In this document: positions 2,940 through 51,055 of the stretch, in pieces
Numbering within the stretch: position 1 is the first letter of the stretch
Layout: each line of letters begins with the position of its first letter
NCBI GenBank assembly: GCA_030041435.1
Contig: JASHNW010000014.1
Coordinates: 1-59,238, forward strand
Direction of reading: 5' to 3'
Origin: Acidobacteriaceae bacterium
Lineage (GTDB): Bacteria > Acidobacteriota > Terriglobia > Terriglobales > Acidobacteriaceae
DNA: 59,238 bases
Translations under genes and position numbers: made by a program
Notes under the pieces: model-generated
The model's input: only the letters and a program-made list of their open reading frames with translations
Told to the model about the DNA's origin: nothing
The model's database searches: none

Positions 2940-5399
2940 GTGAAGCTCGGCGGATCGAAACGAGTCGGCAGCCATTCGGCCTTTGCGCTGGGAGTTTGCG
3001 TGCTGTTCGCGCTGCCGGTGGCCGCACAGGCGCGCGGACTGCACGTGGCCATTGGAGCCGACGGGAGATACAGCATCGGCGGGCCGGATGCGGCCGGTTC
3101 CGCGCTCACTGCGGGCGTGGCGGCCGAGGTGGATGGCCACTGGCTGCACTCCGCGGATTTTCCAAAGCATGCCGTTGTGCAGTCGGAGACGCAGGGAGAC
3201 CTGGGCGCGGCGACCGAATGGCAGGTAACGAATTCGGGCGTGGCGGGAGAGCCGCAGCTTGTTTATCGGTTGCGCGCCTATCACGATGCTCCGTTCGCCG
3301 ATGTTCAGGTGACGGTGGAGAATGGGACGGGCGCGGCGATGCATGTGGAGGCGATCCGCGTTGTGGATGCCGCCGGCGATGACGTGGTGAATCTTGACGG
3401 CCCGGCGGCAGCGGACCGCGTACTGTCGGACAGTTTCAGCGAAGACCGGCCTGCGATGCGGATTCACGACCTCGCCGATACGCAGGGCGGAATGCATCGC
3501 GGGGTGGGCAGCCAGCTGCTTTACAACCGCGAGAGCCACGAGAGCCTTTTTGTGGGCGCGCTCACGTCGGACAAATTTCTGACGATTCTGCGGCTGCATC
3601 TGGCACCGGGCGCGGGGCCGCACATTGCTGCCTTCGAAGTGGATTCGACGGGCACAACGGAGATGGAGAAGGAGAACTCGCTCCAGAACTCTCCGGCGGA
3701 AGATCAGATCCCGCTCCGTATTCCTGTCGCTCCCGGCGGCACGCTGGCCTCAGAGCGGGTGCTGCTGAGCGTCGACAAGGATTATCACGGGCAGCTGGAA
3801 ACGTACGGCTCGCTGATTCGGAAGATCCACCACGCGCGCGTTGCTGCGCCGCCGCTGCTGGGCTGGTGGAGCTGGACGGCGTTCTACTTCGGCCTGAATG
3901 AAGGCGCCGCGCTGACCAACGCGCAGTGGCTCGCGGCGCACCTGCAGCGGTATGGCTACCAGGTCTTCCACATCGACGAGGGCTACCAGTATGCGCGCGG
4001 CGAGTACACCACGCCGAATGCAACGCTCTTCCCGCATGGTATGACCGCGCTCGAATACAAAATTCGCGGGCTGGGTCTGACGCCGGGTATCTGGACTGCT
4101 CCGTTTGAAGTGTCGGAGCGGTCGTGGGTGTATGAGCATCACCCCGACTGGCTGATTCACAACGCGCAGGGGCAGCCGATTCCGGCGGGGTCTGCGACCG
4201 ATGGGAAAGATCGGCTCTTCATTCTGGACACGACGAATCCTGGCGCGCAGGACTATCTGCGCATGACCTATTCGACGCTGGTGCAGAAGTGGGGCATTCA
4301 CTACATCAAGCTCGACTTCATGGACGACAGCGCGATCGAGGGCTATTACTACAAGCCCGGCACTACCGCCATGGAGGCGCAGCGCATCGGGCTGGGTATT
4401 ATTCGCAGCGCCGTGGGCGACGATGTGTATCTGGACAAAGACGGCAGCGTGATGATGAACCCCGTGGGCTATGTGGACTACGGGCGCATCTCGCAGGACA
4501 CGGGACACACCTTTGACGCGACGAAGGACGCGGCGACGGGGATTGCGGCGCGGTACTACATGGATCGCAATTTCTTCGTGTCGGATCCGGATGCCTTTAC
4601 GGTCTCGACGCAGACCATCTCCGATCAGAGCTGGCATGAGAGCCGGACGCCGGCGACGCTGGACGAAGCGCGGGCCTCCATGGCTCTGGCTGCGGTTTCC
4701 GGCGGAATGCTGGAGATCGGCGACAACCTGCCGTCGCTGGAGCGGATGACGGACCGGGTGGCGCTGATCGAGAACCAGGATTTGATCGACATGGTGCGGC
4801 TGGGGCGGGCTTCCACGCCCGTCGACCTGATGGACTACCGCGAGCAGGATGGTCAGCCGACGATCTTCCTGCTGAAGGAATCGCCGCGCCAGAGCATTTT
4901 GACGGTCTTCAACTGGACGAAGCAGCCGGTGCAGCGGACGATTTCGCTGGAGCGGCTGGGCCTTGCGGCTGGCGGGAACTATGCCATCTATGACGTTCTG
5001 GACAGCAAGGACGTGGCGGGACCGGCGGGGGGCGCTGTGGAGATGGAGATTCCGGCACAGTCGGTGCGCGTGCTGAAGCTGATCGACCGCAGCGTGGTTC
5101 CTGAGACACCGATGATGAAGATCGAGCATGCCGAGGGAGGCACAGCGGGAGACACGCTTGCGTTCTCGGCGGAACAGACGGGAGGCGATCCGGTGGTGGG
5201 GTGGCAATGGGATTTCGGCGATGGCGTGACGGCGGAAGGCCGCGCGACGAACCACGCGTGGACTGAGCCGGGCGACTACGATGTGACGGTGACGGCGCAG
5301 GGGCTGAGCGGCGAGGACGCGCAGCAGCAGTTTCGGATTCACATTGCCGGATATATGTCGACGGTGTTCAATCCGGCGAAGATACAACGCCTTCCGTGA
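2940..5399 (+). CDS. Secreted GH36-like alpha-galactosidase with C-terminal PKD domain
   Basis: The 819-residue protein probably hydrolyses alpha-galactosides outside the cytoplasm. The GTG start at 2940 is chosen because GAGGGGG lies just upstream and a signal peptide (residues 1-30, ending VAAQA) follows. Residues 35-280 are the beta-sandwich domain. The TIM barrel starts near 305 (GWWSWTAFYFGLNEG). FHIDEGYQ (343-350), YIKLDF with Asp459 as likely nucleophile and GRISQD with Asp521 as likely acid/base follow the GH36/clan GH-D plan. Residues about 725-805 form a PKD domain (WQWDFGDG), common in exported carbohydrate-active enzymes. It heads the rightward arm, with DeoR about 100 bases downstream. 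Exact specificity (galactose or related sugar) is uncertain. Confidence 0.85.
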   Translation: MKLGGSKRVGSHSAFALGVCVLFALPVAAQARGLHVAIGADGRYSIGGPDAAGSALTAGVAAEVDGHWLHSADFPKHAVVQSETQGDLGAATEWQVTNSGVAGEPQLVYRLRAYHDAPFADVQVTVENGTGAAMHVEAIRVVDAAGDDVVNLDGPAAADRVLSDSFSEDRPAMRIHDLADTQGGMHRGVGSQLLYNRESHESLFVGALTSDKFLTILRLHLAPGAGPHIAAFEVDSTGTTEMEKENSLQNSPAEDQIPLRIPVAPGGTLASERVLLSVDKDYHGQLETYGSLIRKIHHARVAAPPLLGWWSWTAFYFGLNEGAALTNAQWLAAHLQRYGYQVFHIDEGYQYARGEYTTPNATLFPHGMTALEYKIRGLGLTPGIWTAPFEVSERSWVYEHHPDWLIHNAQGQPIPAGSATDGKDRLFILDTTNPGAQDYLRMTYSTLVQKWGIHYIKLDFMDDSAIEGYYYKPGTTAMEAQRIGLGIIRSAVGDDVYLDKDGSVMMNPVGYVDYGRISQDTGHTFDATKDAATGIAARYYMDRNFFVSDPDAFTVSTQTISDQSWHESRTPATLDEARASMALAAVSGGMLEIGDNLPSLERMTDRVALIENQDLIDMVRLGRASTPVDLMDYREQDGQPTIFLLKESPRQSILTVFNWTKQPVQRTISLERLGLAAGGNYAIYDVLDSKDVAGPAGGAVEMEIPAQSVRVLKLIDRSVVPETPMMKIEHAEGGTAGDTLAFSAEQTGGDPVVGWQWDFGDGVTAEGRATNHAWTEPGDYDVTVTAQGLSGEDAQQQFRIHIAGYMSTVFNPAKIQRLP

Positions 5400-5502
5400 G
5401 GTTCGCATTCCGTTGGCACGGGCGGGCGCGGAGCAGCTATGATGCGGCTTACGCATCGAGGCCGCGCGCACGGCGCGCAGTGGAGAGGACGACACGGGAA
5501 GC

Positions 5503-6315
5503 ATGGCACGGAAACCCATGAAGACAGCCCTGGAAACAAACGACAGCAGCCAGATGCTCATCGATGAGCGCCGCCGCCACATTCTGTCGCTGGTGCAGAG
5601 CCAGGGGCGCGTTTTGGTGGGAGAACTTTCGCGCACGCTCGGGATTTCGCAGATCACGATCCGCAAGGATCTCGAACATCTGCAGTCGCGGGGACTGATC
5701 CAGCGCACGCACGGCGGGGCGCTGCGGATGCAGTCGGGAGCGCTCTTCGATCCGTCGCTGCAGGAGAAGCAGAAGCAGCATTCGCAGGAGAAGCAGCGCA
5801 TTGCGGACGAGGCGGCGAAGATGGTGCAGGAGGGCCAGTGCGTGATGCTGGACTCCGGCACGACGACTACGGCGGTTGCGCACGCGCTGAAGCGTTATTC
5901 GCAGCTGACGCTGATTACGAACGCGGTGAACATCGCCGCGGAATTGACGAATACGAACTTCGAGGTAATCCTGATCGGCGGGACTTTGCGGAAGAATTCG
6001 TTTTCGCTGGTCGGGCCGCTGGCGGAAGACGTGCTGAACGAGATGCACGCGGACATTTTGTTTCTGGGCGTGGACGGGTTCGATGTGGAAACCGGCATCA
6101 CCACGCCGAACTTCCTTGAGTCGCGTGTGAACCGGGCCATGGTGAAGGCGGCGCGGAGGGTAGTGGTCGTGTGCGACTCGACAAAATTCAATCGCCGCAG
6201 CCTCTCGCGCATCGTGCCAACCTCGGCAATTCACTGCGTCATCACGGATAAGAACATTCCCCGCGAGGCAGAGGACGCGCTGCGGAGCCAGAACGTGGAA
6301 CTGATCCTGGTGTAG
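5503..6315 (+). CDS. DeoR-family transcriptional regulator
   Basis: This is a 270-residue cytoplasmic repressor of the DeoR/GlpR type. The N-terminal winged helix-turn-helix (residues about 20-75: RRHILSLVQSQGRVLVGELS, then DLEHLQSRGLIQRTHGGAL) is followed by the sugar-phosphate sensing DeoRC domain (MLDSGTTTTAVAHAL, FLGVDGFDVETGITTPN). DeoR proteins usually respond to a phosphorylated sugar. The PfkB kinase encoded divergently could supply that ligand, so this is the likely regulator of the whole locus, with the inverted repeat at 2767/2877 as a candidate operator. It lies between the glycosidase and the amidohydrolase on the same strand. Confidence 0.92.
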   Translation: MARKPMKTALETNDSSQMLIDERRRHILSLVQSQGRVLVGELSRTLGISQITIRKDLEHLQSRGLIQRTHGGALRMQSGALFDPSLQEKQKQHSQEKQRIADEAAKMVQEGQCVMLDSGTTTTAVAHALKRYSQLTLITNAVNIAAELTNTNFEVILIGGTLRKNSFSLVGPLAEDVLNEMHADILFLGVDGFDVETGITTPNFLESRVNRAMVKAARRVVVVCDSTKFNRRSLSRIVPTSAIHCVITDKNIPREAEDALRSQNVELILV

Positions 6316-6326
6316 GGCTGAGGCGC

Positions 6327-7388
6327 ATGGATTCCGCGGACACGCAAAAGGAACAGGACAAGTTTGTCGCGCTGGTGACGGCCAAGGCGGAGGTGACGCT
6401 GCCTCTGGGAGAATTTCACCCGCGATCGATGCTGGCGGCGCCCGAGCACGAGATTCAGCGTCCCCGCTTCCCTGCCGTCGATTACCACAACCATCTCGAC
6501 TCGATGGAGCCGGCCGACGTGCTGCGCGTGATGGATACGTGCGGCATCGAGAAGGTCGTCAACATCACGATGCAGACCGGCGATGCGGCGCTGCGCATGA
6601 TCGATAAGTATCGCGCCGCGGACGCGCAGCGCTTCGCCACCATCGGGTGGATGGACTGGGCGGGCGTCGGCGAGCCGGACTTCGTGCTGAGGACCTGCGA
6701 GTTTCTGGAGCGGCTGGTGGAGCGCGGCGCGGTAGGCATCAAGTTCTGGAAGGACCTGGGACTGAGCGTGCGGGACGGCAGCGGGCAGTTGCTGCGCATC
6801 GACGACGAGCGGCTGGCGCCGATCTTCGACAAGGCCGCAGAGCTGGGCATTCCGGTTATGTTTCACACTGCCGACCCGGATGCGTTCTTTCTGCCCATCG
6901 ACAGCCGCAACGAGCGGTTCGAGGAGCTGGCGGCGCATCCGGACTGGGGATTCTACGGTTCGCAATATTCGAAATCGGAGCTGCTCGACCAGCGCGACCG
7001 GGTCATTGCGCGCCATCCGGGGACGACGTTTGTGGCGGCGCATGTGGCGGAGAGCGGCGAGAACCTGGCGCGCGCCACAAAACTGCTGGAGACGTATCCG
7101 AACGTGTATGTCGACATCAGCGCCCGTGCGTCGGAGCTGGGGCGGCAGCCGTACACAGCGCGCGCGTTCTTTCTGCGCTTCGCCGACCGGATTCTCTTTG
7201 GCACAGACCTGCTGCCGGAGGAGAGCATGTACCGGCTCTACTTCCGCTTCCTCGAAACGGCAGATGAGTATTTTGAGTACCCTTCGCACGCTTCGCGCCA
7301 GGGCCGGTGGAATATCTACGGTCTATCCCTTCCCGACGATGTTCTGAAAAAGGTCTATCGCGAGAATGCCCTGCGGCTGCTAAGGTAG
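6327..7388 (+). CDS. Amidohydrolase-family TIM-barrel metal-dependent hydrolase
   Basis: The 353-residue protein belongs to the amidohydrolase-2 group (metal-dependent hydrolases and decarboxylases with one or two metals). Near the N-terminus HNH (54-56) is the HxH metal site. A further His lies in MFHTADPD, another in VAAHVAES, and the late Asp in LFGTDLLPEE; these are the expected metal ligands in order. It starts 11 bases after the DeoR stop, so the two are surely cotranscribed. In sugar clusters such proteins act as lactonases or dehydratases, but the substrate here is unknown. Confidence 0.85.
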   Translation: MDSADTQKEQDKFVALVTAKAEVTLPLGEFHPRSMLAAPEHEIQRPRFPAVDYHNHLDSMEPADVLRVMDTCGIEKVVNITMQTGDAALRMIDKYRAADAQRFATIGWMDWAGVGEPDFVLRTCEFLERLVERGAVGIKFWKDLGLSVRDGSGQLLRIDDERLAPIFDKAAELGIPVMFHTADPDAFFLPIDSRNERFEELAAHPDWGFYGSQYSKSELLDQRDRVIARHPGTTFVAAHVAESGENLARATKLLETYPNVYVDISARASELGRQPYTARAFFLRFADRILFGTDLLPEESMYRLYFRFLETADEYFEYPSHASRQGRWNIYGLSLPDDVLKKVYRENALRLLR

Positions 7389-30251: not shown

Positions 30252-30352
30252 GTGTGCCGGGTCCTGCGCGACGCAATCCCGCCAACCCCGCCAGGTCCGG
30301 AAGGAAGCAACGGTAACGGGCCAGTGCGTGCGCAGCAGGTCACCCGGTGCAC
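30252..30352 (+). ncRNA. ffs: Signal recognition particle RNA (bacterial small type, 4.5S)
   Basis: The conserved SRP54-binding core CAGGTCCGGAAGGAAGCA is present with the matching tetraloop region. The ends pair over 11 bases (GTGTGCCGGGT with ACCCGGTGCAC, two wobbles), giving a hairpin of about 101 nt. TAGAAT at 30241-30246 is the likely -10 box. The RNA works with Ffh and the FtsY receptor (encoded at 16997) in co-translational targeting. The exact 5' and 3' ends are inferred from pairing. Confidence 0.95.
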
Positions 30353-42576: not shown

Positions 42577-42653
42577 TGGTGGCGGCGGGTAGGATCGAAC
42601 TACCGACCTTGGGGTTATGAATCCCACGCTCTAACCATCTGAGCTACGCCGCC
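42577..42653 (-). tRNA. tRNA-Met (anticodon CAT), elongator type
   Basis: The 77 nt on the minus strand fold into a standard cloverleaf. The acceptor stem is GGCGGCG/CGCCGCC, the D-arm starts TAGCTCAG, the anticodon loop is TTCATAA, and the T-loop is TTCGATC in a GGTAG/CTACC stem. The 3' CCA is encoded. The standard 7 bp acceptor start (G1-C72) and single A in the D-loop pattern argue against initiator tRNA. The lysidine-modified Ile type with the same anticodon cannot be fully excluded by eye. Confidence 0.93.
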
Positions 42654-42839: not shown

Positions 42840-45239
42840 ATGAGTCGAAAGCTTTTCGCCGCAGGCCTGGTTTCCCTGTCGCTGCTCCCTGCCGGCAGCG
42901 CCGTCGCTCAAAAGCAAATTGTCCTCCAGCGCCGCGATGCCACCGTCACCCTCGAAGCCTACGCCCCGAACGTTGTGCGCATCACGATGAGCCTCAAAAA
43001 GGACGCCGCGCTCGCGCCCCCCGGCTATGGAATCACGGCTAAGCCCTCCGATGAGGGCTGGGCCTACGAACACACCGACACGATGGACACCTATAAGTCC
43101 GCCGACCTGACGGTGAACATGCCGGTGCCCCATTACAGCCCGCGCAACACGAAGTACACCTGCGACACCTGCCAGTATTTCTCCGGCTCCACGCCGTGGA
43201 TTCCGCTCACCGTCACCGGCGCCGACGGCAAGACGCTGGTCGATATGGAAGGCTGGTCCATGGCCGTTCCGAACTATAAGGACGGCACGGAATACCTCCT
43301 TTCGCAGGTGCAGCCCTCCATCGCCTACGATCGCTTCGACCCGCGTCCTGCGGATGCGGCGTACTTCCAGGTAGGAGCCACCTTCCGCTCGGCCGACGAC
43401 GAGCACTACTACGGCCTCGGCGAGAATCAGCAGGGGTATCTCGATCACCGCGATCATCAGATCCAGTGCTGGAACGATTACACGGCGGCGGCCGCTCCGA
43501 CTTTCTGCGTGCCCTTTCTGGTCACCAACAAGCACTACGCCGTGCTCTGGGACAATCCTTCGAAAACCACTATCGACGCGGGCTTCAACGAGCGCACCAC
43601 CTGGTCCTCGGAAATCGGCGACCGCGTCTCCTTCTTCGTCATTACCGGCAAAACCACCGACGAACTGTACGGGGGATACCGGCTGCTCACCGGCAGCACG
43701 CCCATGCTGCCCAAAGCGGCCTACGGCTATATCCAGTGCAAGCAGCGCTATTCGAGCCAGGCCGAAGTGATGGCTGTCGCCAATGGCTACCGCGAGCGCC
43801 ACCTGCCGCTCGACATCATCGTCGTCGACTGGTTCTATTACACGAACATGGGCCAGATGGATTTCGACTCGCGTTCCTGGCCCGATCCCGCGGCCATGAA
43901 CGAGAAGTTGCACCAGATGGGCATCCAGACCATGATCAGCGTCTGGCCGCGCTTCGTGCCCACCGACCGCTTCTATACCGAACTGCAAAACAAGGGCTGG
44001 TTTGAGCATCTGGCCGACGGCACGCCAACGAACGGCCTGCCCTACGATCATGCCGGCTCCGATATCGACACCACGAATCCCGACGCGGCGAAGTGGTACT
44101 GGAACACGATCAAAGACAACATTCTCAGCAAAGGTTTCAATTTTCTCTGGGCGGATGAGACAGAGCCCGACCTTGCCCCCAACGGCAGCTACTTCCACAT
44201 CGGGCCAGGCACCGAGTACTTCAACGTCTACCCGCTCTTCCACACCGGCGCGCTCTACAACGGCTACCGCTCCGACGGCGACAAGCGCGGGCTGATCCTC
44301 TCGCGTGACGGCTATCTCGGTGTGCAGCACAACAGCGCCATCGTGTGGTCATCGGATATCTTCCCCACCTGGGACACGCTGCAGCGGCAAATCCCGACCG
44401 GCCTCGATGTTGCCGCGTCCGGCCTCAATTACTGGAGCAACGACACCGGCGGCTGGCAGTATCTGCCCGCGGTCCACCACCCCGACCATCCGCCGCTGCT
44501 CTCGCCCGACGACGCGCGCGACAATGTCGGTGGCTACGACGATTACCCCGAGCTCTACACGCGCTGGTTTGAGTACGCCAGCTTCCTGCCCATCTTCCGC
44601 ACGCATGGCAGCCGCAGATACAACGAGGTCTGGTCCTACGGCAAGCAGGCCGAGCCGATCCTCGAGCAGTATCTGCGCCTGCGTTATCAACTCATGCCCT
44701 ATATCTACTCGCTGGGCTGGTTCACCCACGAAACCGGCGCGCCGTTTATGCGCGCGCTGTTCATGGACTTCCCCGACGACCCTAAGGTCGATGCCATCGG
44801 CGATGAATATATGTTTGGCCCGGCGTTCCTTGTCGCGCCGGTCACCACCCAGGGAGCGACGACAAAGCAGGTCTATCTGCCCGCGGACGCGGACTGGTAC
44901 GACTACTGGACCCACAAGCGCTATCAGGGCGGGCAAACGGTCACCGTCGACGCTCCGATCGACAAGCTTCCGCTCTTCGTGCGCGCCGGGTCGATTATCC
45001 CCATGGGCAGCGCCGTCGACAGCACCGAAGAGAAGCAGACCATCACGAAGGTCGAAGTCTGGCCGGGCGCCAACGCCGACTTCACCCTTTACCAGGACGA
45101 CGGCCAGACGTACGCCTACGAGAAAGGCGACTACCAGCTAACGCATCTGCATTGGGATGATGCGGCGCACCGGCTGACCCACTCAGGGACGGTCGCGTGG
45201 AGCGAGCCCGACAGCCAGGTTGTCGAAGTGATCCGATAG
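42840..45239 (+). CDS. Secreted GH31-family alpha-glucosidase/alpha-xylosidase
   Basis: The 799-residue enzyme has a signal peptide (MSRKLFAAGL to AVAQ, residues 1-24), an N-terminal beta-sandwich (YFQVGATFRSADDEHYYGLG), the TIM barrel and C-terminal sandwiches. The nucleophile Asp439 is in FNFLWADETEP and the acid/base Asp506 in AIVWSSDIFPTW. SNDTGGW and THGSRR are further family residues. It hydrolyses terminal alpha-glucosides or alpha-xylosides outside the cytoplasm. No ribosome site is clear at ATG 42840, but the signal peptide fixes the start. It stands alone after tRNA-Met. Confidence 0.93.
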   Translation: MSRKLFAAGLVSLSLLPAGSAVAQKQIVLQRRDATVTLEAYAPNVVRITMSLKKDAALAPPGYGITAKPSDEGWAYEHTDTMDTYKSADLTVNMPVPHYSPRNTKYTCDTCQYFSGSTPWIPLTVTGADGKTLVDMEGWSMAVPNYKDGTEYLLSQVQPSIAYDRFDPRPADAAYFQVGATFRSADDEHYYGLGENQQGYLDHRDHQIQCWNDYTAAAAPTFCVPFLVTNKHYAVLWDNPSKTTIDAGFNERTTWSSEIGDRVSFFVITGKTTDELYGGYRLLTGSTPMLPKAAYGYIQCKQRYSSQAEVMAVANGYRERHLPLDIIVVDWFYYTNMGQMDFDSRSWPDPAAMNEKLHQMGIQTMISVWPRFVPTDRFYTELQNKGWFEHLADGTPTNGLPYDHAGSDIDTTNPDAAKWYWNTIKDNILSKGFNFLWADETEPDLAPNGSYFHIGPGTEYFNVYPLFHTGALYNGYRSDGDKRGLILSRDGYLGVQHNSAIVWSSDIFPTWDTLQRQIPTGLDVAASGLNYWSNDTGGWQYLPAVHHPDHPPLLSPDDARDNVGGYDDYPELYTRWFEYASFLPIFRTHGSRRYNEVWSYGKQAEPILEQYLRLRYQLMPYIYSLGWFTHETGAPFMRALFMDFPDDPKVDAIGDEYMFGPAFLVAPVTTQGATTKQVYLPADADWYDYWTHKRYQGGQTVTVDAPIDKLPLFVRAGSIIPMGSAVDSTEEKQTITKVEVWPGANADFTLYQDDGQTYAYEKGDYQLTHLHWDDAAHRLTHSGTVAWSEPDSQVVEVIR

Positions 45240-45245
45240 ATTTCA

Positions 45246-45268
45246 GGCCCCTGCCATGCGCAGGGGCC
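45246..45268. terminator. Bidirectional hairpin between GH31 gene and small membrane gene
   Basis: GGCCCCTGC (45246-45254) pairs with GCAGGGGCC (45260-45268) around a 5-base loop, seven bases after the GH31 stop and eight bases before the stop of the converging small gene. Confidence 0.6.
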
Positions 45269-45276
45269 GACACTCG

Positions 45277-45369
45277 CTAGGCAGCGAACTTATTAATCAG
45301 CGTAATTGCCACAACAATCAGAACCACAGCCGCAACCAGCCCTGTAATCGCCAACGTTCCCAGACTCAT
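45277..45369 (-). CDS. 30-residue single-helix membrane peptide
   Basis: This very short gene starts with ATG at 45369, with a strong GGGAGAGG ribosome site three to ten bases upstream. It encodes MSLGTLAITGLVAAVVLIVV followed by AITLINKFAA: one clean transmembrane helix with a short lysine-containing tail. Such peptides often regulate larger membrane complexes, but no partner is evident. It converges on the GH31 gene with a shared terminator. I judge it real because of the ribosome site and uniform hydrophobicity. Confidence 0.6.
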   Translation of the reverse strand: MSLGTLAITGLVAAVVLIVVAITLINKFAA

Positions 45370-45722
45370 GGCCTCTCCCTTATCCCATGTATCGGCGCGA
45401 CCCGATTCCAGGATGAGGGGCCGCAGCAGATACCGAACGATCCCAGGATAGATTCCTGAGCCTGTCTTCACAGTGACGGCCGTCACGATCAACGGTTTCC
45501 CTCCGGATTCTTCGCCGGGGGCGGCTCTTAGCTTTCGCACGACCGGCGCTGGAGACCCATTCTTCTCAGTTCGGGGAGAGAGGAGCGGTTGTGCCTGGTT
45601 TGGCTTCCGCATCGTTGTGGAAGGCCAGCCCGCCCCCGAAAAGACATTCCGCGCCCATTCGCTCCAGCCGGGCCCTGTGCCTGGCTCGACAGACCTTGCA
45701 TCGTGGCCCATAGTTGTTTCTC
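45370..45722. other. 353 bp intergenic region upstream of pfkA and the small peptide gene
   Basis: No gene is supported here. The one clear element is a perfect 14 bp palindrome, GTGACGGCCGTCAC at 45473-45486, which may be an operator. CATAGT at 45709-45714 lies eight bases before the pfkA ATG and may be its -10 box. Open frames through this stretch lack start signals and have arginine-rich, shadow-like composition. Confidence 0.5.
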
Positions 45723-46853
45723 ATGGCCACAAAAATCAGGCGCATCGGCATTCTTACGGCCGGGGGCGACAGCCCCGGTTTGAACGCAGCCATCCGCGGC
45801 GTGGGCAAAGCCGCTCTCGGCTACTACGGCTGGGAGATCGTAGGGTTTCGCGACGGTTTTCGTGGCCTGGTCGAGAACCGGCGGATCAATCTGGATCGCG
45901 CCGCTCTTTCCGGTATTCTCACCATCGGCGGCACCATTCTCGGCACCAGCCGCGACAAGCCGCATCGCATGGTGATGAACGGCGAAACAAAGGACATGAC
46001 CGGTGTTATCCGGGACAATCTCACGAAATGGGGAATCGATTGCGTCGTATGCCTGGGCGGAGGCGGCACAGCGAAGAACGCCCTGCGCCTGCACCGGGCC
46101 GGCATCCGTGTGATTACGTTGCCGAAGACCATCGACAACGACGTGGCCATGACTGACGCCACTTTTGGCTACGCCACCGCTTTGGATATCGCCACCGAGG
46201 CGATCGATCGCCTGCACAGCACCGCTCACAGCCACCACCGCATCATCGTGGCTGAAATCATGGGCCATCGCGCCGGCTGGCTCACCCTCGGCGCCGGACT
46301 GGCGGGCGGTGCAGACGTGATTCTCATTCCCGAAATCCCTTACGACGTGAAGAAGATCGCCGATGCCATTCGCCAGCGCAGCAAGCGCGGCAGCAACTTC
46401 AGCATTGTGGCCGTAGCCGAGGGCGCGATGAGCTGCGACGACGCGCGCCTCTATGACAGCGCGGAGAAGGAACTGGAGCGCGCCAAAACCCTGAACGACA
46501 AAATCGAGGCCAAGCGCGCCATCGCCGCGCTGGATGCTCGGCATCAGGGCAACACGATGCGTCTCGCCGGACAGCTCGAGGAACTCACCCACCTTGAATC
46601 CCGTGTGACCATTCTTGGCTATGTGCAGCGTGGCGGCACGCCGTGCGCCGCAGATCGCATCCTCGCCACGCGCCTTGGCACCGCCTGCGCCGATCTGATC
46701 AACAAGGGGGAGTTTGGCGTGATGCTGGCGGCCCGCGGCGACGACACGGCGCCGGTGCCGCTGGAGAAAGTAGCAGGCAAGCGAAAGTCAGTTCCGCGCG
46801 ATCACTCCTGGATCGAGACAGCCCGCAGGCTGGAAACCTGCCTTGGTGATTGA
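45723..46853 (+). CDS. pfkA: 6-phosphofructokinase
   Basis: The 376-residue glycolytic enzyme phosphorylates fructose 6-phosphate. Visible motifs are [18 protein letters not shown] (nucleotide loop), LGGGGT (112-116), PKTIDND with the catalytic Asp, and [20 protein letters not shown]. Gly115 corresponds to the position that favours ATP over pyrophosphate, whereas Lys135 (PKTIDND instead of PGTIDND) is typical of pyrophosphate or group III enzymes. The phosphoryl donor is therefore uncertain. ATG 45723 is used; a TTG nine bases earlier is in frame. It is transcribed alone, just before the RiPP locus. Confidence 0.93.
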
Positions 46854-46899
46854 GACGAACGACTTGTGCATGGGGCAGGCTGTTCTTAACAAGTGAATG

Positions 46900-46940
46900 T
46901 GTCCGGTTTTTGCAGCAAATGAAATGTCCGTTTCTGGCAG
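46900..46940 (+). repeat. Pair of imperfect 16 bp direct repeats resembling an IS end
   Basis: TGTCCGGTTTTTGCAG (46900-46915) and TGTCCGTTTCTGGCAG (46925-46940) match at 13 of 16 positions by eye and are spaced 25 bases apart. Multiple short repeats starting TGT near an end are usual for IS21-type elements. No transposase remains, so this would be a relic. Confidence 0.35.
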
Positions 46941-47048
46941 ATCTCCCGCAGCCGCCGGAGGGTGGACAAGTGGGAACCGCGGAGCGATTGCAGGGCGGAG
47001 CCACCGTTTTTTTCCATACCCCTGCTCGCTTTTTTGGTCGCTTTTTTC

Positions 47049-47077
47049 TTGACAAGAGCTTTAAGAGGTACTAGGCT
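47049..47077 (+). promoter_or_regulatory. Promoter of the RiPP precursor gene
   Basis: A perfect -35 box TTGACA (47049-47054), a 17-base spacer and a -10 box TAGGCT (47072-47077) precede the precursor gene by about 40 bases. This is the best sigma-70-like promoter in the window and suggests strong expression. Confidence 0.65.
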
Positions 47078-47116
47078 CCCTCTGCCTTTGGAATCCCCAC
47101 GCGTAAGGAGAAAGAC

Positions 47117-47290
47117 ATGGCAGCTCAGAAAGCTTCTATCGGCGGCACCGTTAATAACAAACCAATCACCCCGGAATTGGCGGCAAAAGTACAGAATGCC
47201 CTGAAGAGCACCGTAGAAAGTGAACTCTCGATTCGTCCGCCCTTTCACATCGAGATCACTCACATCGACATCACTTTCGATAAGGTGTAG
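47117..47290 (+). CDS. Cyclophane-type RiPP precursor peptide
   Basis: The 57-residue peptide (not long enough to be found by simple length cut-offs) has an AAGGAG ribosome site six bases before its ATG. Residues 1-37 are a polar, helix-prone leader (MAAQKASIGGTVNNKPITPE). The C-terminal core, residues 42-57, reads PFHIEITHIDITFDKV: three aromatic-X-X triplets, His44-Ile-Glu46, His49-Ile-Asp51 and Phe54-Asp-Lys56, exactly five residues apart. In triceptide RiPPs a radical SAM enzyme links the ring of the first triplet residue to the beta carbon of the third; three small cyclophanes are predicted. The maturase gene follows 119 bases downstream. No transporter or protease gene is adjacent. Codon use is AT-richer than its neighbours. 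Confidence 0.8.
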   Translation: MAAQKASIGGTVNNKPITPELAAKVQNALKSTVESELSIRPPFHIEITHIDITFDKV

Positions 47291-47409
47291 GTCGACAGAA
47301 CCCCAAATCTTTCTTATTCGATATTGCCGGTCCAGACAGCTGCTCTCTGAGCGGAGCGGGTAAGTGTTTGTCTTTTGACTTCGACCGTTGGCCATGCGGG
47401 AGAACTTGC

Positions 47410-48627
47410 ATGAGTGAGGTTCGACAGTCCAGGGAAACCAGATATATCAGCCACGCTGTTCTGAAGGTGGCATCACGCTGCAATCTGAACTGCTCGTATT
47501 GCTACGTATACAACAAGGGCGACTCCACGTGGAAAATACGGCCGCCGCTGATGTCGGATGAGGTATTTGAAGCGGCACTCGAGCGGATTTGCCAGCAGTG
47601 CCACGCCACTCGCCAGGAGCGATTCCGCATAGCCTTCCACGGGGGAGAACCATGTCTTATTGGTCACGACACGTTTGACGCCTGGTGCGGAAGAGCACGC
47701 GCCGTCCTGGGAGAGATGGTGCATTTAGGTCTGGTCATCCAGACGAACGGAACGCTGCTGGATTCGACGTGGATCGATTTGTTCCGAAAGCACCACGTGG
47801 CCGTCGGGCTCAGCATGGATGGGCCCAGGGAGATCCACGATGCTGTGAGAGTCGATCATCGGGAGCAAGGCTCCTATGAACGCGTGGAGCGCGGCTTAAG
47901 GCTCCTGCAGGAAGGGGGTGTGCCGTACGGTATCGGTTGTGTGATTCCGCTGGGGGCCGATCCTCTGACCGTGCACCATCATTTTCTGAGGCTCGGCTGC
48001 ACCCAGATTACTTACCTGATGCCCCACTTCACGCACGACACGATTGGGCCCATCCGGGAACGCTACGGTCCGACTCCCTGCGCGGATTTTCTGATCCCAA
48101 TTTTTGACGATTGGTGGTTTGAAAGCACGATGGAGATCCAGATCAACGATTTGAAAGATGTGGCGCGCGTAATCATGGGCGGCAGGAGTCACAGTGAAGC
48201 GATCGGCAATTACCCTCCGCGTTACGTGTTCATCGAACCGGACGGGGAGATGGAGGGGCTGGACAATCTGCGCGCCTGTTGCGACGGACTTTCGCGCATC
48301 AGGCTGAACGTACGCAATTCCACCTTCTCCGATCTGCTGCATACCGAGACGATGCATTCCCAGGCGATATTCGAGGGCATGCCGGTCGCGCAGGCCTGCC
48401 GCAACTGCATTGAGGGGGAGACGTGCCGCGGCGGATATCTTCCCCATCGCTATTCCAGCGCTCGAGGCTTCGACAATCCGAGCGTCTGGTGCGCGGACCT
48501 GCTGAAGCTGTTTGCCCATCTGCGGAGCCGGATGGGCGTGAGCATTGAAGAGACTCATGAGCGCCAGCGTATGCTTGCGGCGAAAGACGCTCCCAGCCTC
48601 GATGCGGAGGGCATGGCCGTTTTTTGA
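47410..48627 (+). CDS. Radical SAM/SPASM cyclophane-forming peptide maturase
   Basis: The 405-residue enzyme should crosslink the precursor encoded upstream. The radical SAM cluster motif is Cys24-x3-Cys28-x2-Cys31 (CNLNCSYC) in the typical KVASRCNLNCSYCYVYNKGD. FHGGEPC and QTNGTLLD are further core motifs, and GLSMDGPREIHD is the substrate-side strand. The C-terminal SPASM-type region has Cys290/291, Cys330, Cys333, Cys339 and Cys361 in CRNCIEGETCRGG and GFDNPSVWCADL. This follows the layout of FxsB, GrrM and XyeB, enzymes that form three-residue cyclophanes. ATG 47410 has GGGAGA six bases upstream; an earlier in-frame ATG at 47368 lacks one. It appears cotranscribed with the precursor. Confidence 0.9.
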   Translation: MSEVRQSRETRYISHAVLKVASRCNLNCSYCYVYNKGDSTWKIRPPLMSDEVFEAALERICQQCHATRQERFRIAFHGGEPCLIGHDTFDAWCGRARAVLGEMVHLGLVIQTNGTLLDSTWIDLFRKHHVAVGLSMDGPREIHDAVRVDHREQGSYERVERGLRLLQEGGVPYGIGCVIPLGADPLTVHHHFLRLGCTQITYLMPHFTHDTIGPIRERYGPTPCADFLIPIFDDWWFESTMEIQINDLKDVARVIMGGRSHSEAIGNYPPRYVFIEPDGEMEGLDNLRACCDGLSRIRLNVRNSTFSDLLHTETMHSQAIFEGMPVAQACRNCIEGETCRGGYLPHRYSSARGFDNPSVWCADLLKLFAHLRSRMGVSIEETHERQRMLAAKDAPSLDAEGMAVF

Positions 48628-48896
48628 GGACTAAGGGAAAACTGCAGAAACGTGAAAAGATCGGCTCCGCACCCGCGTCATTCGAGCAATATTCGGGGAT
48701 GACCGCCGATCGGAGGCGGTTCCTGGCCGGACCCTTCGGCTCATTCAAAAACAACAGGAGCTGGTCTTCCGGCGAGTCCCGGAATCACGATGCGCCTGCG
48801 CCGGAAAGAACCGTCTCCTCTGCCGATCCTCGCCCGAATCCATTGAACCAGCATCCATTCATCCGGCGCGAGCCGCTTGCAACGGGCTGCCAATGA
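48624..48896 (+). CDS. Possible small basic protein overlapping the maturase stop
   Basis: A frame starting at TTG 48624 (overlapping the maturase TGA), or at ATG 48699, encodes up to 90 residues. The sequence is basic and Pro/Arg-rich (MTADRRRFLAGPFGSFKNNR) and has no recognised family. There is no ribosome site at the ATG. It could be a third RiPP gene or non-coding sequence. I lean slightly towards non-coding. Confidence 0.25.
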   Translation: MRTKGKLQKREKIGSAPASFEQYSGMTADRRRFLAGPFGSFKNNRSWSSGESRNHDAPAPERTVSSADPRPNPLNQHPFIRREPLATGCQ

Positions 48897-48921
48897 CCGC
48901 GGCCTCTTCTACTTCGACGAC

Positions 48922-49719
48922 CTAGCCGCCAAGGTCCACCAGTTCCACCCCGTCGATCGGTCGCCCCAGAAACCGGCTGCCCAGCGCGCGAAACTTCGCC
49001 ACCGAATCCGTCGCGAAGAAGAGTGTCTCCGGCGCATCCGCATGTAACACCGCGCCATCCAGCGTCTTCGCCACCTGCTCGGCCGTCACTTCGGCCGAAT
49101 CGATCACGCGCAGACGCTCCGGCACCGCCCGTTCGATCTGCGCCCGCAGCAGCGGATAGTGCGTGCAGCCCAGCACCAGCGTGTCCGGATCGAGCGCCGC
49201 GGCCCGCGCCTGCTCCATCAGCTCCGACAGGTAGACCCGCAGCACCTCAGCGGTCACCGGATGATCGATCCATCCCTCTTCCACCAGCGGCACCAGCAGC
49301 GGACACGCCTTTTCAAGGGCGCGCATCTGCCGCTCCTCGCACGCCGCTGCATACGCGTGGCTCTCCACCGTTGCCGCCGTGGCAATTACCAGCACGTCGC
49401 GCGTTGTGGAACTCCCATCTGCGGCATTCGCGCCGGTTTCCACCACTCCCAGCACCGGCACAGCGACCGCATCGCGAATCGCGTCGAGCGCTAATGCGCT
49501 GGCCGTGTTGCAGGCAATCACCAGATATTCGGCGCCCTCGGCCACCAGAAACCGCGCGCTCGAGGTTGCATAGCGCGCCACAGTCGCACGCGACTTCGCC
49601 CCGTAGGGCAGCCGCGCCGTGTCACCCAAGTAGATGTAGTCCGCGCCTGGAATGTGTTCCAGAAGCGCGCGCAGTACCGTCAGCCCGCCGAAACCCGAAT
49701 CGAAGACGCCGATTTTCAT
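48922..49719 (-). CDS. murI: Glutamate racemase
   Basis: The 265-residue enzyme makes D-glutamate for peptidoglycan. VFDSGFGGLTV opens the protein; the two catalytic Cys residues are Cys70 (IACNTASA) and Cys185 (LGCTHYPLL, with His187). Length is normal. Its ATG overlaps the stop of the GerMN gene as ATGA. It closes a four-gene operon for cell-wall functions. Confidence 0.96.
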   Translation of the reverse strand: MKIGVFDSGFGGLTVLRALLEHIPGADYIYLGDTARLPYGAKSRATVARYATSSARFLVAEGAEYLVIACNTASALALDAIRDAVAVPVLGVVETGANAADGSSTTRDVLVIATAATVESHAYAAACEERQMRALEKACPLLVPLVEEGWIDHPVTAEVLRVYLSELMEQARAAALDPDTLVLGCTHYPLLRAQIERAVPERLRVIDSAEVTAEQVAKTLDGAVLHADAPETLFFATDSVAKFRALGSRFLGRPIDGVELVDLGG

Positions 49720-50342
49720 CGCCCCGCCCCCACGGGCGTGGGCTCAGGATTCGCTTCCGCCGCCATATACGTCCGCGTCAGATCCGCATGTCCCGCCAGG
49801 GTATCGCGCGGCTGCCCATCCACCAGAAAGTGCACCTCGGTAATCTGCGGCATGTTGGCGTGCAGCGTCGCCATCACCGCCAGCAGCGTCAGCGTCTCCG
49901 GCTCAATGCCCGACGGCTGCGCAGCGGCCAGCGCTCCGCTCAGGTCCACCACCGCCTCCTGCCCGCCGCCGGCTGACTGCGGCACCGGCAGGAAATACAC
50001 ATCGTTCACGCCGGAAGCCACATCGATGGGGTGCGTCGATCCCGGCGCGTGGAAGGCCTCCACCAGGTTTTCCAGCAGCACCCGCGCTTCCGCGTTGTTG
50101 TCACCGGGCAGGGCGAGATTCCGCTCTACGGCAGTCAGCGAGCCGTCGAGGTCGTTCGGCACGTAGAGCGTCACCGCACGCGGCGGAGTGCTCGTCCCTT
50201 CTGCAATGGACGGCGGCGCGGCGCTGGCTTCAGCCTGCAGGCGGTCCTGGGCGCGATTGCGCAGCCGGATCAGCACCGCCGCCATGATGACGCACGCCAG
50301 CAGCATCACCAAAAACAGCATTTTGTGCGCGCGCGTGATCAT
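49716..50342 (-). CDS. GerMN-domain exported protein
   Basis: The 208-residue protein has an N-terminal membrane anchor (MLFLVMLLACVIMAAVLIRL) and a GerMN domain (about residues 55-185: RAVTLYVPNDLDGSLTAVER, VNDVYFLPVPQSAGGG, ITEVHFLVDGQPRDTLAGH). GerMN domains are found with amidases and spore or cell-wall proteins and are thought to bind ligands in the envelope. The ATG at 50342 shares its first base with the amidase stop (TAATG), and its own stop overlaps murI, so translation is coupled on both sides. Confidence 0.9.
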   Translation of the reverse strand: MITRAHKMLFLVMLLACVIMAAVLIRLRNRAQDRLQAEASAAPPSIAEGTSTPPRAVTLYVPNDLDGSLTAVERNLALPGDNNAEARVLLENLVEAFHAPGSTHPIDVASGVNDVYFLPVPQSAGGGQEAVVDLSGALAAAQPSGIEPETLTLLAVMATLHANMPQITEVHFLVDGQPRDTLAGHADLTRTYMAAEANPEPTPVGAGR

Positions 50343-51055
50343 TATTGTTTCCAGTCGCTGCGCCACGACTCCAGCGCGGCGCTCAGCGCGTCCACCACAG
50401 ATTTCTGATAGCCGGCATCGGAGATGCCCCGCGCTTCGGTCACATGTCCGGCCACCAGCGGCGCCATCTCCACGGCGACCGCCGGACAGGCCAGGCTGTC
50501 CATGGGCTGCACATAGGCCCGGCCCAGGGTTACTGGAATCTGTGCGTGCGCCAGCGCCGAATCGATCTCCGACTCCAGCTTCAGGCTTTGCGTCACGTAG
50601 GCGGCCTGCGCCGTCTGCCACGGCAGCATCCGCGCCGGCGCCGCCTGCGCCAGCGATGAGGTAAACAGATGCACCCCGCTGCCCGTCGCCGTTGCATGGA
50701 TCACGAGGCACCCGGCAGCCGCGGCGTGGTTTGCCGTCCCTGCGCGGTCGGCCATCGACGGATTCACGTCCCCATCGCGCGTGGTCACCACATCGATGCC
50801 CCGCGCGCGCAGCGCCGAACGCAGGCGATTCGAAAGGGCCAGAGTGACGTCCTTCTCCTGAAGATCGCTGCGCAAATGCGCGCCGGGATCGCTTCCCCCA
50901 TGCGCCGCGTCGAGCACGACAACAAACCCCGGCCGCACCAGCGGAGCAGCGGGGGCGGGAACAGCCGGCATTTGCGGAGCCTGAGGCGGCGGAGTCTGCG
51001 CCTGCGCGCACCCGAGCAGGATCACAGCCAGCGCAGCTGCCTCAGTCCAGCGCAT
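50342..51055 (-). CDS. N-acetylmuramoyl-L-alanine amidase (amidase_3) lipoprotein
   Basis: The 237-residue zinc amidase cleaves the amide bond between glycan and peptide in peptidoglycan. The zinc ligands appear as His52 (LDAAHGGSDPG), Glu67 (LQEKDVTLAL) and His120 (CLVIHATATG); the catalytic Glu is Glu196 (PAVAVEMAPL). A lipobox LLGC (Cys16) suggests an envelope lipoprotein, followed by a Pro/Gln linker. It overlaps the DUF1015 gene by 14 bases and GerMN by one. Confidence 0.92.
   Translation of the reverse strand: MRWTEAAALAVILLGCAQAQTPPPQAPQMPAVPAPAAPLVRPGFVVVLDAAHGGSDPGAHLRSDLQEKDVTLALSNRLRSALRARGIDVVTTRDGDVNPSMADRAGTANHAAAAGCLVIHATATGSGVHLFTSSLAQAAPARMLPWQTAQAAYVTQSLKLESEIDSALAHAQIPVTLGRAYVQPMDSLACPAVAVEMAPLVAGHVTEARGISDAGYQKSVVDALSAALESWRSDWKQ

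Follow-up and report, generated by a model that had tools for sequence, protein, structure and literature searches.

A two-gene radical SAM cassette of Acidobacteriota predicted to form three-residue cyclophanes, and candidate repeat-built precursors at sister loci on Rhizobium plasmids

A short peptide gene followed by a radical SAM enzyme gene raises the question whether the two form a RiPP cassette, and which modification the enzyme would introduce into the peptide. Such a pair is found in the DNA analysed here (the window, 59,238 nucleotides; Acidobacteriaceae bacterium, GCA_030041435.1, contig JASHNW010000014.1, positions 1-59,238, forward strand). A first-pass annotation had read the pair as a 57-residue peptide gene with its ribosome-binding site and a downstream maturase that makes three-residue cyclophanes, and both genes were found in place (Table 1). 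The likely start of the enzyme is ATG 47410, which we preferred to the mechanical start TTG 47368 because a GGGAGA ribosome-binding site precedes this ATG. Our analysis suggested that a two-gene RiPP cassette of the triceptide type is the best explanation of the locus, and we consider it highly probable. The chemistry is of a known kind, and the enzyme branch and the repeated peptide design are unnamed in the family libraries searched. Peptides of this type may already figure among precursors listed in print.

Table 1. Features of the peptide-enzyme cassette in window coordinates
Feature	Position	Strand	Basis or remark
Whole cassette	47038-48641	+	limits are the extent of blastn DNA similarity to L003 (84%)
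Promoter-like element, TTGACA (47049-47054), 17 nt, TAGGCT (47072-47077)	47049-47077	+	TTGACA conserved; -10 weak
Ribosome-binding site AAGGAG, 6 nt 5' of the peptide ATG	47105-47110	+	sequence
Precursor peptide gene, 57 aa	47117-47290	+	ATG start; leader KVQxALKS...EL, then core; homologues 5' of the enzyme in L003, L004, L100
Tandem 15-nt direct repeat encoding HIEIT-HIDIT (5-codon unit)	47245-47259, 47260-47274	+	repeat finder family D3; copy 2 93% identical
Predicted ring motif 1, H44-I45-E46 (alternative register F43-H44-I45)	47246-47254	+	H44 invariant in 4/4 rows; ring inferred
Predicted ring motif 2, H49-I50-D51	47261-47269	+	H49 invariant in 4/4 rows; ring inferred
Predicted ring motif 3, F54-D55-K56	47276-47284	+	aromatic in 4/4 rows, Trp for Phe in L004 and L100; ring inferred
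Ribosome-binding site GGGAGA before the enzyme ATG 47410	47398-47403	+	sequence; near-identical stretch in L003
Radical SAM maturase, predicted cyclophane-forming, 405 aa	47410-48627	+	Pfam Radical_SAM 2.3e-14; FxsB 300 bits; YhhB 296 bits; ChlB 9gm3 best solved relative
CxxxCxxC (C24/C28/C31), radical SAM [4Fe-4S] ligands	47479-47502	+	sequence; invariant
CxxC-x5-C ... NPSVWC (C330/C333/C339/C361), likely ligands of a single auxiliary cluster	48397-48492	+	invariant

The pair recurs in four more Acidobacteriota loci (L003, L004, L100 and L056), whose enzymes are 90, 81, 69 and 60% identical to that of the window. The first-pass annotation had named homologous enzymes without a conserved peptide as the finding that would speak against it. 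In this clade a short peptide gene stands 5' of the enzyme, on the same strand, in all five loci, the window included. When the 57-aa peptide alone was searched against 300 genomes of the family (E 0.01), three matches were obtained, namely its own genome, the genome G009 and the new locus L100 (E 2.4e-9). The enzyme beside the L100 peptide was 71% identical by tblastn. Because L100 was found by the peptide alone and has the enzyme adjoining, this independent check indicated that the peptide and the enzyme belong to one system. The G009 contig is identical in sequence to L003, and the two were counted as one.

The distribution of the cassette seems rare and patchy. When species genomes were scanned by pattern, 17 candidate stretches were obtained, 5 of them relatives, and two of these (L003 and L004) reached 80% or more. 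A match at E 0.001 occurred in 30 of the 61 genomes of relatives, its own among them, and besides the window only G009 reached 90%. In wider searches that sampled the group with up to four candidates scored per genome, so that the counts are lower bounds, at least 12 of 399 class genomes (own included) had a match to the L004 enzyme with E no higher than 1e-35, which in one genome (L045/L056) reached 64%, and at least 4 of 396 phylum genomes (own included) matched the family profile at E 1e-70. Two weak relatives (29%) were found on viral contigs. Matches were obtained in 15 phage records, all below 60%, with five among the matches listed at about 24%. For a second copy in the own genome there was only a weak match (E 3.3e-6).

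The borders of the cassette could be drawn from DNA comparison. The similarity to L003 covers the promoter and the two genes and stops at the cassette ends, and the block shared with L004 ends at window position 48673. A blastn search of window 44001-51000 against the L003, L004, L100 and L056 loci (E 1e-5) returned nothing beyond the cassette block. In the genus, with 25 candidates scored per genome and some assemblies incomplete, the right-flank DNA on the glutamate racemase side was present in all 11 other genomes searched. The cassette DNA was seen in only one of these 11, G009, on a different contig, and a short stretch matching the left flank (window 46881-47012) was on a third G009 contig.

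The promoter had been described as strong, and only part of this description held. TTGACA is found 66-84 nt 5' of the start codon in four of the five loci (window, L003, L004 and L100); in L056 none was present within 120 nt upstream. The hexamer that follows is weak in the window (TAGGCT, a 3/6 match to the consensus), L003 and L004, and L100 has a near-consensus TATACT after an 18-nt spacer. A promoter scan of the window called no site.

The peptide core reads PPF-HIE-IT-HID-IT-FDK-V in the window and L003, PTH-HAS-LT-HFS-IT-WDQ-V in L004 and PTH-HIE-FT-HIN-IV-WDE-A in L100. In the alignment of these four peptides, three aromatic positions were kept at 5-residue spacing and much of the remaining core varied. 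When the window was compared with L003, the 19 core codons at the 3' end of the peptide gene showed 5 synonymous and no amino-acid changes, and the 38 leader codons showed 12 synonymous and 11 amino-acid changes. For the peptide dN/dS was 0.136/0.928, and for the enzyme 0.052/0.637. These codon comparisons indicated that the peptide is under purifying selection. The pattern of aromatic-x-x-[ILV]T twice and then an aromatic residue, which was framed after seeing the sequence and which L100 fails in its strict form (linkers FT and IV), arose at a frequency of 3.5e-5 when the window core was shuffled and of 2.4e-4 when the L004 core was. The spacing alone, without the linkers, was common in shuffles (3.7% for the window core and 7.8% for the L004 core).

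The three evenly spaced aromatic triplets (two with His and one with Phe) support the view that the pair is a radical SAM RiPP system of the kind that makes three-residue cyclophanes. They also agree with the several His- and Phe-based rings that had been predicted, whose number is probably close. The same chemistry might give fewer or shifted rings, with only the two C-terminal triplets crosslinked, or with ring 1 formed by F43-I45, and with the N-terminal unit used for recognition. Two triplets around a [VIL]T linker are indeed found in more distant Acidobacteriota (WTQ-VT-FSR, WTQ-IT-FSR and FGR-LT-FSQ in L057, L058 and L059), and ring 1 could be F43-I45 because position 43 is aromatic too (F/F/H/H in the four rows). 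Against this stand the invariance of H44 in all four rows and the DNA repeat, which spans unit 1 as well as unit 2. We regard this alternative as unlikely, though with some weight. The preferred reading is that the enzyme very probably makes about three small rings in the peptide.

Beyond the close relatives the peptides diverge. The most distant locus of the clade, L056, differs in its core, which has HDA and HAN motifs. Other loci lack the layout of two triplets and a linker, for example L062 and L064-L066 with their YhhA-like tails. The 57-aa peptide gave no match to NCBIfam or Pfam families. A profile of the four close leaders, searched against 1476 ORFs, ranked the L056 peptide second (E 0.99) and reported nothing significant. 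A leader motif common to the more distant loci was considered and rejected on this result, for which reason we claim no leader kinship beyond the four close loci.

The enzyme was compared with curated families, among which the earlier reading had named AmcA/AmcB and pointed to FxsB, GrrM and XyeB. The highest NCBIfam score was to FxsB (TIGR04269; 300.4 bits over the full length, cut-off 370), followed by YhhB (NF041707; 296.5 bits over the full length, cut-off 445). XyeB (TIGR04496) scored 168.9 bits against a cut-off of 450, and GrrM/OscB (TIGR04261) 102.6 bits against 310. Membership in FxsB, GrrM/OscB or XyeB thus fell short at every curated cut-off. AmcB (NF041718; cut-off 425) is cyclophane-forming by its model name and has the radical SAM core in common with the window enzyme, but its 110.1 bits cover residues 28-215 only and the peptide matches no NCBIfam family, so that the AmcA/AmcB assignment was not sustained.

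The closest solved structure by sequence was ChlB (PDB 9gm3/9gmc), which is like the window enzyme in its C-terminal Cys pattern (9gm3: E 9e-53 with the single sequence and 223 bits by profile). ChlB is named a multiple-cyclophane synthase, with several rings per peptide, in a title in the reference list of PMC12636437, and the available part of the same paper describes it as fused to an alphaKG-HExxH hydroxylase. The window enzyme of 405 aa differs in this respect, and no HExxH family was found among its Pfam matches or the 25 of 68 NCBIfam matches listed. Of the features of three-residue cyclophane-forming enzymes (3-CyFE), those that can be read from sequence were present, namely CxxxCxxC, CxxC-x5-C...C (one cluster's worth) and an adjacent precursor with aromatic-X-X motifs that is conserved with the enzyme.

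All of the Cys motifs expected from the first reading, including NPSVWC, were found, and C24, C28, C31, C330, C333, C339 and C361 were invariant in the 11 aligned enzymes, window included. As a correction to the label "radical SAM/SPASM", the Cys ligands suffice for one auxiliary cluster only. In the alignment to the sulfatase maturase 4k36, the first auxiliary-cluster Cys had no counterpart in the window enzyme, for which reason this enzyme most likely contains a radical SAM cluster and a single auxiliary cluster, not the full SPASM pair; ChlB showed the same Cys pattern there. The invariant Asp D285 aligned with the 'CDF' Asp of 4k36, which we take to be the catalytic Asp of the sulfatase maturase. 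The window enzyme also scored 163.1 bits to the anaerobic sulfatase maturase family (TIGR03942), as would be expected if it were such a maturase with an unrelated small ORF upstream. That score misses the cut-off of 349, sulfatase maturases trail ChlB in the solved-structure search (1.3e-28 versus 9e-53), the auxiliary-cluster Cys noted above is lacking, and the peptide is under purifying selection and co-occurs with the enzyme. This explanation is hardly credible.

A tree of 28 rows, which has no GrrM or AmcB row and whose deepest forks, including the place of XyeB, are unsupported, grouped the five window-type enzymes (100/99) and then joined them to two Rhizobium plasmid enzymes (97/90). 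This clade stood apart from a 14-row group (98/95) with HaaB, YhhB and an FxsB above its cut-off. In that group HaaB scored 420 bits and the L080 enzyme 395 bits to FxsB (cut-off 370). The FxsB family including HaaB gives the highest NCBIfam score, at full length; the window enzyme stays below 370 bits and outside the supported HaaB/YhhB/FxsB group. By these cut-offs the window enzyme is in a clade that the curated libraries leave unnamed, and is not AmcB, FxsB, GrrM, XyeB or YhhB. YhhB resembles it in the full-length match, and His is among the YhhB ring donors in the available part of PMC11002830. The YhhA-type tails (Y-x-R-x-H-x-R-H-x-R) have zero or one residue between triplets, whereas the window core has two.

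Radical SAM/SPASM maturases are chemically diverse and no named cyclophane family includes this clade, so another modification of the 57-aa peptide, such as an ether or C-N crosslink or an epimerisation, has to be weighed. The peptide contains no Cys, which argues against a thioether to a Cys of its own. The nearest named relatives (ChlB, FxsB/HaaB and YhhB) are reported as cyclophane-forming in the accessible text of PMC11002830 and PMC12636437. We consider a different modification quite improbable. A triceptide-type system, with three-residue cyclophanes, is well supported by sequence, because the pair recurs, the core spacing and codons are conserved, and ChlB is the closest solved structure.

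For this system we propose the following mechanism. The leader, likely a helix around KVQNALKS, would recruit the enzyme. The radical SAM cluster would cleave SAM, and the resulting 5'-deoxyadenosyl radical would take the beta-hydrogen of residue i+2, the last one in an aromatic-X-X triplet. The beta-carbon of that residue would then bond to the aromatic ring of residue i, and the auxiliary cluster would remove the spare electron. This bond from i to i+2 should be expected for the window enzyme by analogy with XncB, OscB, MscB, HaaB and YhhB (PMC11002830, in part) and ChlB (PMC12636437, in part). The predicted rings would be H44-E46, H49-D51 and F54-K56, separated by two-residue Ile-Thr linkers, with a total mass change of -6 Da. 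For enzymes of this kind, the available part of the review PMC11002830 describes rings donated by His, Tyr, Phe or Trp. The acceptors it gives are Asn, Asp, Arg, Ser and Ala; the Glu and Lys acceptors of rings 1 and 3 are absent from this list. The leader would presumably be cut off by an unlinked protease. As a guess, the product would be a small peptide with an ecological use, either secreted or acting on the envelope.

Several observations count against this explanation, as the enzyme misses every curated family cut-off, the L056 core differs, and the adjoining genes encode neither a transporter nor a protease. These two genes are phosphofructokinase and glutamate racemase by Pfam, in a scan that covered 13 other window genes. 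The same scan placed an S41 peptidase gene about 9 kb from the pair. In L100, genes for a MacB/FtsX-type permease and a TonB-receptor plug-domain protein lie on opposite sides of the pair, and in L004 a MacB/FtsX-type permease likewise lies one gene away. Because such permeases are common in Acidobacteria, we treat them as a lead only. The window also contains an ordinary bacterial small SRP RNA gene (30255-30352, +) and an ordinary tRNA-Met (cat) gene (42577-42653, -).

The sister clade on Rhizobium plasmids (NZ_CP050304 and NZ_CP071682, both typed conjugative) is the more surprising part. Its enzymes, 49 and 47% identical to that of the window, are likewise unnamed in NCBIfam. These loci differ from the window in the long repeat protein upstream and in what lies downstream. 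The 'hypothetical protein' encoded directly upstream of the enzyme has 380 aa with 8 HxQ(T/N)HSx units in one locus (L068, 3718-4860) and 632 aa with 13 units in the other (L069, 2983-4881), and the units hold 16 of the 21 and 27 of the 34 His of these proteins. Downstream, both records annotate an HExxH protein, and the L068 copy, which was scanned, scored 68 bits to TIGR04267 (cut-off 40). A further protein of the downstream region matched NAL1_N at 28.8 in L068 (cut-off 27) and below the cut-off, at 21.3, in L069; Peptidase_S64 was below its cut-off in both. When the 380-aa protein was searched by tblastn against 72,556 plasmid records (E 0.001, low-complexity filter on), only these two records were returned. 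The end of the 632-aa protein (RVSEALGKAVQSEL) is leader-like by eye and was not reported by the leader profile at E up to 10. Literature searches linking cyclophane, Rhizobium and radical SAM, or FxsB, RiPP and radical SAM, found nothing.

From their sequence, the 380- and 632-aa proteins are candidate giant multicore cyclophane precursors. Tentatively, and with less than even confidence, we propose that the window and Rhizobium loci make up a new clade of cyclophane-forming systems in which substrates become longer through tandem repeats. They would range from a 15-nt repeat and three linked rings in 57 aa in Acidobacteriota to 8 or 13 double-His units, with up to 26 rings, in 380-632 aa in Rhizobium, there beside a separate hydroxylase and a possibly protease-like protein that could excise the units. 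If true, a radical SAM enzyme would modify an entire repetitive protein, which would widen the presumed substrates of radical SAM maturases. The window pair is minimal and easily expressed, and its evenly spaced motifs are useful for studying ring-site choice and ring counting.

In L004 a DUF483-like gene (5261-6307, below cut-off) lies directly 3' of the enzyme. A corresponding third operon gene, as a remnant at window 48624-48896, was considered and rejected: tblastn gave no good match, and found no DUF483-like gene in the window or L003. The alignment of window DNA past the stop with L004 scored 99.3, no better than shuffles (200 shuffles, mean 78.9, maximum 106.6). The blastn similarity to L004 extends 46 nt past the enzyme stop, into the first codons of the DUF483-like gene, and a small remnant of that gene may lie past the window enzyme stop. 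Among 297 phylum genomes, the DUF483-like protein had one match, in G608, beside an HxsB-like enzyme; the FxsB-type enzyme of G608 is on another contig.

Some other loci were observed in passing. The HxsB-like locus of this Acidobacteriota genome (L081, G608 contig 9) has a 270-aa protein with a His-Asp-Arg repeat tail (5825-6634, -) preceding the radical SAM enzyme, which at 283.7 bits stays under the 370 cut-off; two more proteins follow, one of them DUF483 over cut-off. It is possibly a separate His-rich RiPP locus. On G608 contig 22 (L080), an enzyme scoring above the FxsB cut-off (3881-5104, -) is preceded by two short peptides in tandem whose aromatic triplets are closely packed (FDNHTAFTEHTN; HVNHTAFQDHSD). 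In the L003 genome, a short contig (L037, G009 contig 295) that could be a binning contaminant encodes an 820-aa FxsB-type enzyme (3145-5607) whose C-terminal part contains HEFQH, of the HExxH type.
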